DNA of 64,000 bases, from NCBI GenBank assembly GCA_900537125.1, contig UNRJ01000001.1:558001-622000 (forward strand), written 5' to 3'. Under the pieces are notes generated by a model, which saw only the letters and a list, made by a program, of their open reading frames with translations, was not told where the DNA came from and did not search any database. This DNA comes from Rhodobacteraceae bacterium Alg238-R152 (GTDB lineage: Bacteria > Pseudomonadota > Alphaproteobacteria > Rhodobacterales > Rhodobacteraceae). The position numbers and the translations under genes were made by a program. This document shows positions 1 to 3,510 of this stretch, one piece after another (within the stretch, counting starts at the first letter, position 1; every line of letters begins with the position of its first letter).

Positions 1-351
1 GCTTTTCAGCAAGATAGGGGATTTGTCGCAACCCAGTTTAGAATGTGCCCGGCTCCATTACGTTAGCCGCATAATAAGTATTATGTAAATTACCGAACTG
101 CGAAGGATCGGAGGGTTTTCCTTACAAGCCAGGTTTCACCACCGGACGACCTTGCTTGCGCGCGGCATAATAGATCAGCCACGATCATACAGAGGTTTCC
201 GATCAGTTACCGCAAAGAGACAGCTCAACGCAGGCTAGACATCCCACACGTGTTTACTATAATCTTTCTGGCAGTTCATGGGGATGAGCTGTGCGTTAAG
301 ATACCCCACAAATTGTCTTGGTTCAGATCTGCCACCATTGGCCGCGCAGTT
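1..351. other. Intergenic sequence, nothing recognised
   Basis: This stretch precedes the luxR-type gene and looks more A+T-rich than the sequence downstream. I find no reading frame with a credible start and family resemblance on either strand, and no tRNA or obvious terminator. The upstream neighbour lies outside the window. Confidence 0.6.
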
Positions 352-378: not shown

Positions 379-1171
379 ATGAACGACACGATCGACTACA
401 TCGAAAAAATTATGAACCAGACTAGCCTTGAGGCGCTCTGGGACGTTCACTGCGCAAAAATGCAGTCTTTTGGCTTTGACAAAATCATCTACGGATACAC
501 CAATTACCGAAGCGGTATGTCACTTGGCGATGTGGAAGACTTCTTTATCCTCTCAACCTACGATCGAGACTACCTTGATGAGTTTATTGGTGGCGGTCTC
601 TATTTCAATGGCCCCATGATGAAATGGACATTGGAGAATGCAGGCGCGCAAAGCTGGCGCTTGGCCCGCGAGGCCTATGATGCTGATACACTTTCTGAGA
701 AGCAACGCCAGGTTTTTGAATTCAATCAAGACTACGGTCTGGAATGAATTCAATCAAGACTACGGTCTGGAAGCGGGGTATACGGTCAGTTTCCCCACGG
801 TTTCGTCTCGCACCAAAGGAGCCATTTCCCTGGGGGCGCGATCTGGCGTAACACAGGAGTCGCTTGATGCGTTGTGGGAAAAGTCGGGACGCGACATTGC
901 TTTGATCAACAATGTGGCACATTTAAAAATCCAGTCCCTGCCCTACGACAACCCAGAGCGCGAACTCACCAGCCGTCAGCGTGAAGTGCTTGAATGGGTT
1001 GGAGATGGTAAAACAATTCAAGACATTGCGCTTTTGATCGGACGCACGCCGGCGACGGTTGAGAAGCATTTGCGGCTGGCGCGTGATGCGATGAATGTTG
1101 AGACAACGGCCCAAGCCTTGCTCAAAGCGACCTTCATGCGGCAAATTTACTTGCTTGAAGGCCCCAGCTGA
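379..1171 (+). pseudogene. LuxR-type quorum-sensing regulator, split by a 28-bp tandem duplication
   Basis: The first frame (379-747) carries an autoinducer-binding-like domain and the second (to 1171) carries the end of that domain plus a LuxR/FixJ helix-turn-helix (ELTSRQREVLEW, TPATVEKHLRLA). A perfect 28-bp direct duplication at 717-772 shifts the frame and creates TGA at 745-747. Removing one copy restores one continuous frame of 254 codons, the normal length for this family. Aligned to TraR, the Trp at position 85 is kept, but W57 and Y61 become Tyr and Phe and D70 becomes Gly (motif FNGPMM), so an altered or absent acyl-homoserine-lactone contact is likely. No luxI is visible in the window. 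As read, the product lacks its DNA-binding domain. It could be a true inactivation, a reversible slippage state or a sequencing artefact. Confidence 0.85.
717..772 (+). repeat. Perfect 28-bp tandem duplication inside the luxR gene
   Basis: Bases 717-744 and 745-772 are identical and directly adjacent. Each unit contains an EcoRI-type GAATTC. Twenty-eight is not divisible by three, so the duplication shifts the frame, and its second copy begins with an in-frame TGA. There is no inverted repeat or transposase, so this is not a transposon footprint. Slipped-strand replication is the simplest origin. Confidence 0.95.
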
Positions 1172-1460: not shown

Positions 1461-1735
1461 ATGGTTTCTGATCAAAGACTTTTATTTTTCGTCACGGCGA
1501 AACTTATTGGAATGCTGAATCTCGTAAGCAAGGCCGCCTTGACTCCTCGCTGACGCAGAGAGGACGCCAACAAGCCAGAGACTACGCACTTGCATTAGAC
1601 CGGCTCCAAATCCTTGGCGACAGTGTGACCATTTTTGCCAGTCCCTTGGGGCACGTCAAAGAGACTGTTGAAATCATGCTGACGGAGCTTGATCTGGAGG
1701 ATACTCGCCAAGCGCTACATGCATCCCTGCCCCAA
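1461..1735 (+). pseudogene. Histidine phosphatase (phosphoglycerate-mutase-like) remnant
   Basis: The frame from about 1490 encodes RHGETYWN followed by a Gly-Arg-Leu-Asp-Ser-x-Leu-Thr segment and an ASPL motif, the hallmark of the N-terminal half of the histidine phosphatase superfamily. The natural start appears to be ATG at 1461 (MVSDQRLLFF), but it is out of frame with RHGET by one base; adding one T to the T-run at 1485-1489 joins them. The similarity stops after about 90 residues, roughly half the usual length, where the sequence runs into the tsf terminator. One frameshift plus a 3' truncation makes it a decayed gene. Confidence 0.75.
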
Positions 1736-1740
1736 CCACA

Positions 1741-1771
1741 AAAAAGGCCGCCCCGAATGGAGCGGCCTTCT
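1741..1771 (-). terminator. Terminator of the rpsB-tsf operon
   Basis: The stem 1744-1751 with 1762-1769 (AAGGCCGC/GCGGCCTT) is followed on the minus strand by a T-run (complement of 1737-1745). It lies just past the tsf stop. Confidence 0.8.
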
Positions 1772-1791: not shown

Positions 1792-2667
1792 TTAGCCCTG
1801 AGCGGCTTTGGCCACTTCTGCTGCGAAGTCTTCTTCTTTTTTCTCGATGCCTTCGCCCACTTCCATACGGACGTATGCAACAATCTCAGCACCGGCTTCT
1901 TTGGCTGCGGCTGCAACGGTCAGATCCGGGTTGATGACGAAGTTCTGACCCAGCAGAGTGACTTCGGCCAAGAATTTCTTCATGCGGCCCACGATCATCT
2001 TTTCGATCACCTGCTCTGGCTTACCAGATTCACGGGCGATTTCGATCTGAACATTACGCTCTTTTTCAACAACAGCCGCGTCCAGGTCTGCTTCGGACAG
2101 TGACTGTGGGTTGGCCGCGGCAATGTGCATTGCAACCTGCTTGGCAAAGCCTTCATCGCCACCCTTCAGCGCCACGAGAACACCAATCTTGCCCATGCCA
2201 TCGGTGGCAGGGTTGTGCACGTAAGATGTGACAACGTCGCCTTCAACGGAGGCCATGCGGCGCACGGACATGTTTTCACCGATGGTGGCCACGGCTGCTG
2301 TCACGGTTTCTTCAACGGTTTTGCCGCCCATGTCTGCAACCAGCAGCGCCTCGGTGTCGGCCACAGTCAATGCCACATCCGCGATGCCGCCGACCATGGC
2401 TTGGAAGTCAGCGTTTTTGCCAACAAAGTCGGTTTCAGAGTTCACTTCAACCGCAACACCTTTGCCGCCGGCAACCTTTACGGCCACGAGGCCCTCGGCT
2501 GCGATACGGCCAGATTTTTTGGCTGCTTTGGCGAGACCTTTGGTGCGCAGCCAATCGATCGCTGCCTCTTGGTCGCCGCCAGTTTCGGTCAACGCCTTTT
2601 TCGCGTCCATCATGCCTGCGCCAGTCATTTCGCGCAGTTCTTTAACCATTGCTGCTGTGATCGCCAT
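1792..2667 (-). CDS. tsf: Elongation factor Ts
   Basis: EF-Ts is the cytoplasmic guanine nucleotide exchange factor that recycles EF-Tu-GDP to EF-Tu-GTP during translation elongation. The 291-residue product begins with the UBA-like N-terminal domain ([19 protein letters not shown]) and contains the conserved TDFV motif that contacts EF-Tu, followed by the two-part dimerisation core. Length is normal. It follows rpsB by 72 bases in the classical rpsB-tsf order and is closed by a terminator immediately downstream. Confidence 0.98.
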
Positions 2668-2739: not shown

Positions 2740-3510
2740 TTACGCGCCTGTGGTGGCTTCTTCGACGACGGCTTCTTCAACCGGTGCATCAAATGCGCCA
2801 AGATCTACGCCTGCTGCGCCCAGCTGTGCGGTCATGCCGTCCAAAGCTGCGCGGGAAACCAGATCACAGTACAGAGTGATGGCGCGGGATGCGTCGTCGT
2901 TGCCTGGGATGATGTAGTCTACGCCGTCTGGGGAGCAGTTGGTGTCAACGATGGCAACAACTGGGATGCCCAGTTTGTTGGCTTCGGCAATGGCCAGCGC
3001 TTCTTTTTTGACGTCGATGACGAACAGCAGGTCTGGAACGCCGCCCATGTCGCGGATACCGCCAAGAGACGCTTGCAGTTTACCCTGATCACGCTCGATG
3101 CCCAGACGCTCTTTTTTGGTCAGGCCTTCGGCGCCAGTTTCCAGCTTCTCGTCGATCTCTTTCAGGCGGTTGATGGACTGGGAAACGGTTTTCCAGTTGG
3201 TCAGCGTGCCGCCGAGCCAGCGGTGGTTCATGTAATACTGTGCGGATTTCTCTGCAGCATCAGCGATTGGGCCTGCGGCCTGACGCTTGGTGCCAACGAA
3301 AAGAACGCGGCCGCCTTTTGCAACAGTGTCACGAACAGCATTCAGAGCCAGGTCCAGCATTGGAACGGTCTGGGTCAGGTCCATGATGTGGATGCCGTTG
3401 CGCGAGCCGTAGATGAACGGGCCCATGCGTGGGTTCCAGCGCTGTGTTTGGTGACCAAAGTGAACACCAGCTTCAAGCAGCTGACGCATGGAGAACTCAG
3501 GAAGAGCCAT
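2740..3510 (-). CDS. rpsB: 30S ribosomal protein S2
   Basis: This 256-residue protein starts [20 protein letters not shown], the conserved opening of bacterial S2, and includes the GHQTQRWNP and GGTLTNW motifs. S2 joins the small subunit late and helps dock S1. The C-terminus is an acidic, Ala/Val/Glu-rich tail typical of alphaproteobacteria. It is the promoter-proximal gene of rpsB-tsf. The 192 bases upstream presumably hold its promoter and leader. Confidence 0.98.

Follow-up and report, generated by a model that had tools for sequence, protein, structure and literature searches.

A LuxR-type gene near the start of the window (the whole 64,000-nucleotide stretch of DNA analysed here, from the marine Rhodobacteraceae bacterium Alg238-R152) is interrupted by a short tandem duplication. 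This is probably a recent loss-of-function mutation, seen only in the window genome, in which a 28-bp tandem truncates a LuxR solo next to tsf at residue 122 of about 254. We favour this reading because the two copies are identical, each half of the gene is still open, the relatives are intact, and the 3' piece is without clear relaxation. The mutation looks like one of a well-known kind.

Two identical 28-bp units lie head to tail within the gene (717-744 and 745-772). An earlier note on this DNA had described a perfect tandem at 717-772, and this was confirmed by Tandem Repeats Finder (717-772, period 28, 2.0 copies, 100% matches) and by an independent exact-repeat search, which returned the same position. 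The chance expectation of an exact 28-base tandem is about 64,000 x 4^-28, and the observed repeat is far beyond chance. Because the unit length, 28 bp, cannot be divided by three, a change in copy number shifts the reading frame. The frame opened by ATG 379 closes after 122 codons at TGA 745-747, an in-frame stop formed by the first three bases of copy 2, while the remainder of the gene is open in a second frame to 1171 (ORF 638-1171). The frameshift and the stop at 745 proposed in the earlier note therefore hold, the ORF ending there with 122 aa. Its assignment of the gene to the LuxR regulators is likewise upheld by the domain matches: the 5' piece matches PF03472 (E 2.2e-17, profile 2-99 of 149), and window positions 725-1168, covering the 3' piece, match profile 93-148 of 149 together with GerE (E 2.8e-7). 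Both the autoinducer-binding domain and the LuxR HTH are encoded, split over two frames, and the one-protein arrangement is absent. The features of the locus are as follows.

1..89, minus strand: end of a presumed IS30-like element, upstream of the LuxR gene (transposase ORF just before the window)
379..747, plus strand: LuxR-type gene, 5' piece, 122 codons then TGA (ORF; PF03472)
717..744, plus strand: 28-bp unit, copy 1 (sequence, Tandem Repeats Finder, exact search)
729..740, plus strand: stem AGAC-TACG-GTCT within the unit, a possible fold-back seed (inferred role)
745..772, plus strand: 28-bp unit, copy 2, identical, starting with the in-frame TGA (same basis as copy 1, plus ORF)
773..1171, plus strand: 3' piece, rest of the ligand-binding domain and LuxR HTH, in the other frame (ORF, PF03472, GerE)
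1792..2667, minus strand: tsf (elongation factor Ts), convergent neighbour (PF00889)
2740..3510, minus strand: rpsB (ribosomal protein S2) (PF00318)

The break is confined to this genome among the relatives compared. In each of the 24 other genomes of the genus that were examined, both LuxR halves are in one frame, and a single uninterrupted frame of 230-265 aa is present in 79 of 80 named loci; the two sets overlap and their counts are not additive. The locus set aside from the 80 was that of Thalassovita aquimarina (L111), its two matches falling on neighbouring copies: at L111:3001-3989 there are apparently two adjacent LuxR solo copies, and the halves best-match different places. At the site itself, one unit is present in 15/15 loci inspected, and the duplication was seen in the window genome only. 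In the comparison with related genomes suggested earlier, relatives have a single unit and an uninterrupted gene of about 254 codons, in line with the 254-codon LuxR protein predicted for the one-copy gene. No variation in repeat number was found in the 15 loci, and nothing there points to a repeat that has evolved to vary. A search across the family gave a match at E <= 1e-30 in 295 of 395 genomes, including the window genome, which gives two. Genome G388 has the only inner stop among the matches listed, yet still offers a 260-aa open frame.

To assess the age of the break, a single topology was built from four control genes (phoU, phoB, tsf and rpsB), and the 3' piece was compared with them on it; rpsB is missing for L037 and L038, and L035, lacking phoU and phoB, was left out. 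On the terminal branch of the window genome, the 3' piece has a length of 0.080 and the controls 0.041, a ratio of 1.9, and the same ratio summed over the other branches is 2.35. An old pseudogene with a relaxed 3' half was rejected, as there is no clear excess over the four control genes. Change in the 3' piece relative to the 5' piece is 0.67-0.94 when the window genome is set against four close relatives, 0.40-0.84 within that set of four, and 0.36-1.21 for other pairs; given the somewhat high value for the window genome, a slightly older break is possible. Synonymous distances among the relatives are near saturation and so give no date. With no clear relaxation of the 3' piece, the break is either recent or not real.

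The consequences for the product were judged from a model of the intact protein of relative L033 (mean pLDDT 86.8, pTM 0.73), which matches the LasR, RhlR and TraR structures. In this model, the cut at residue 122 falls between helix 107-118 and strand 124-128, and the truncated product would lose two strands (124-128 and 137-144), the helix at 150-177 and the HTH. The 5' piece alone gave no match to solved structures at E <= 0.001. With the final two strands of the ligand-binding sheet, the long helix and the HTH missing, regulation by this gene has most likely been lost, and a folded or dominant-negative 122-aa product is, judging from the model, unlikely.

The duplication was probably made by polymerase misalignment. 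The junction of the two units, read from the sequence, is without micro-homology, and the unit begins with the palindrome TGAATTCA. When a strand ending at 744 is folded back on AGAC-TACG-GTCT (729-740), the next nine templated bases are TGAATTCAA, identical to the start of copy 2. It is possible that a nascent strand whose end lies at 744 folds in this way; the fold-back would prime synthesis of TGAATTCAA, and the extended end would re-anneal 28 bases back to give the second unit. In a register test devised post hoc, after inspection of the sequence, 91 of 20,000 shuffles of the unit remainder fold back as well, in register. Base 744 would form an A-A mismatch in the fold-back, which counts against efficient priming. 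The fold energy of the unit against plain shuffles gives a z of -4.48; as a sign of a special hairpin it was rejected, being weak once the palindromic head is kept (178 of 2000 shuffled interiors equal or better).

Exact tandems of period 12-200 were surveyed in 432,002 bases (the window and 19 other stretches), about 10% of the 4,265,012 bases of the genome. Such tandems are rare in this sample: one other was found, of 25 bp at L134:8368-8420 (contig C7), where two longer ORFs flank a stretch that holds only short mechanical ones. The sampled 10% contained no second gene-breaking exact tandem, and a pattern of assembly duplications was rejected, none being seen in that part of the genome.

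Three other readings of the locus were weighed against a recent mutation. The strain itself may carry no second unit, as would happen, for example, if two contigs overlapping by 28 bases had been joined unmerged. The assembly is a draft of 14 contigs, and the junction without micro-homology, the lack of a doubled unit in the 15 inspected loci and the continuing constraint on the 3' piece are all in keeping with such an error. However, the site lies well inside a contig, at about 558.7 kb of 860,685 bases, and the sampled 10% of the genome, with no second gene-breaking exact tandem, shows no error pattern; we regard an assembly error as unlikely. It is very unlikely that one of the pieces works, either as a 122-aa antagonist of another LuxR protein or as an HTH-bearing 3' product from an internal start. 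Truncated LuxR proteins, CerN and TrlR, are described as antagonists (PMC11655674), and the 3' half has in-frame starts at 638, 677, 680 and 716, of which ATG 680, with GAGG six bases upstream, could yield a predicted product of 163 residues with the HTH. The first stretch of that product would, however, be read outside the native frame, and the genome has only one other PF03472 gene at E <= 0.001 (contig C5). A dominant-negative antagonist was rejected, as the 5' piece ends within the binding domain (profile 99 of 149), with two strands and the long helix missing in the L033 model.

Reversible phase variation, with a mixed population of one- and two-unit cells and a LuxR solo turned on or off by slippage between the units, is also improbable. 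Adjacent exact direct repeats can be lost through slippage, and the duplicated stretch can form a hairpin. A hairpin in a repeat may raise instability, and a unit longer than nine bases may revert more often than one of that length. For the pneumococcal capsule, phase variation is attributed to short sequence duplications in work cited in PMC4022640. Against this, there are two units only and no change of copy number in the 15 inspected loci, and the reversion given in the same source for a nine-base insertion, at most near 10^-5, is too rare alone for a standing mix. Scarcely probable is a combined scenario in which a two-step fold-back template switch through TGAATTCAA made the duplication and the hairpin-bearing repeat reverts often enough for a standing on/off mix of the LuxR solo in this Shimia. 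Returning to the preferred reading of a recent mutation, the duplication could revert at low frequency by slippage, as other short tandem duplications can, and reversion at this level is plausible by analogy. Nothing indicates upkeep of the duplication as a switch. The loss perhaps arose in culture, although this is speculation. The literature searched held nothing on point concerning a tandem duplication in a quorum-sensing regulator.

Among named records, the best matches for the LuxR-type gene are genomes of the genus Shimia. The downstream neighbour, tsf on the opposite strand, is shared by 75 of the 80 named loci and the window (1792-2667). Window 1472-1759, between the LuxR gene and tsf, holds what is left of a histidine phosphatase gene (PF00300, profile 2-70 of 194); its frame pieces gave no match at E <= 1e-3 in any of the 80 named loci. 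Upstream are phoU, phoB and an IS-like transposase ORF. The element between phoB and the LuxR gene, which we take to be IS30-like (L115:10976-12090, its end near window 89), was found in one copy in the genome. IS-like matches are also present upstream of the equivalent LuxR gene in 4 of the 80 named loci (L035, L043, L049 and L063), and short stretches similar to the element occur in L033, L034 and L036; this is perhaps a recurrent insertion place for IS elements.

The earlier note had called the regulator quorum-sensing, and this label was not supported: no luxI gene adjoins it, and the pocket Asp is replaced in 33/33 aligned relatives. The pocket of canonical AHL receptors is given as W, Y, D (D70), P, W and G (PMC11655674). 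In an alignment of 33 relatives out of the 80 loci, with a placement that agrees with the CviR alignment, the W57 position is Y in all 33, the Y61 position is F in 31 and Y in 2, and the D70 position is G in 19, A in 13 and T in 1. P71, W85 and G113 are kept. The 5' piece in the window reads Y, F and G at the three replaced positions. Since the relatives are without the canonical Asp and luxI is not adjacent, a quorum-sensing role is not established, and on its sequence the window gene is a LuxR solo, not a shown AHL quorum-sensing receptor.

No luxI was found beside the window gene, and the genome has one luxI-like match (PF00765) at E <= 0.001, an orphan gene on contig C9 (L117:7399-7986, 41.6 bits). 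A histidine kinase gene lies about 1 kb from it (L117:9035-10492), an arrangement reminiscent of the topologies with an orphan luxI in Cude and Buchan 2013 (PMC3824088). At least one PF00765 match per genome occurs in 25/25 same-genus genomes. The other PF03472 gene in the genome at E <= 0.001 (L118:5723-6601, contig C5) codes for 292 aa with PF03472 and GerE; a thymidine-kinase-like ORF, recognised by eye, is nearby and recalls Group 5 of the LuxR solos in PMC4338825.

If real, the duplication is a natural knock-out of a regulator found in 24/24 other same-genus genomes and belonging to a family with a match in 295 of the 395 family genomes searched. An experimental role of a tsf-linked LuxR solo was not found in the literature searched, and the strain could help in learning the role of this group, listed as unknown in PMC4338825. 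For phase variation, the locus would be informative only once reversion had been demonstrated.

The closest parallel for the mutation is in the pneumococcal capsule genes, which are inactivated by short tandem duplications (Waite et al. 2001, 2003, cited in PMC4022640 and PMC13410964). In both cases, a short duplication within an open frame stops the product and is in principle reversible, but phase variation is reported for the capsule, whereas the window gene codes for a regulator and the duplication is known from one assembly. The truncated product resembles CerN and TrlR in being a LuxR-type protein without the HTH. According to PMC11655674, CerN has the autoinducer-binding domain and TrlR is without a DNA-binding domain; the 122-aa piece differs from CerN in that its autoinducer-binding domain is incomplete.

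By gene order and pocket residues, the window gene, a LuxR solo next to tsf, matches Group 1 of the unknown LuxR solos, listed as LuxR solo - tsf (C) (Subramoni et al. 2015, PMC4338825). There are differences: the window gene is broken, Shimia is not among the genera named for Group 1 in the available text of that paper, and its table gives rpoB after tsf where the window has rpsB. In the same text, aroQ is always in the same transcription unit as the Group 1 solo, but it is absent upstream here, the sole PF01220 match being on contig C6. Common to both are a LuxR-type gene in Rhodobacteraceae with tsf downstream in the opposite orientation and, among the pocket changes listed for Group 1 (which include W57Y, Y61F and D70I/G/A), the replacements W57Y, Y61F and D70G/A.
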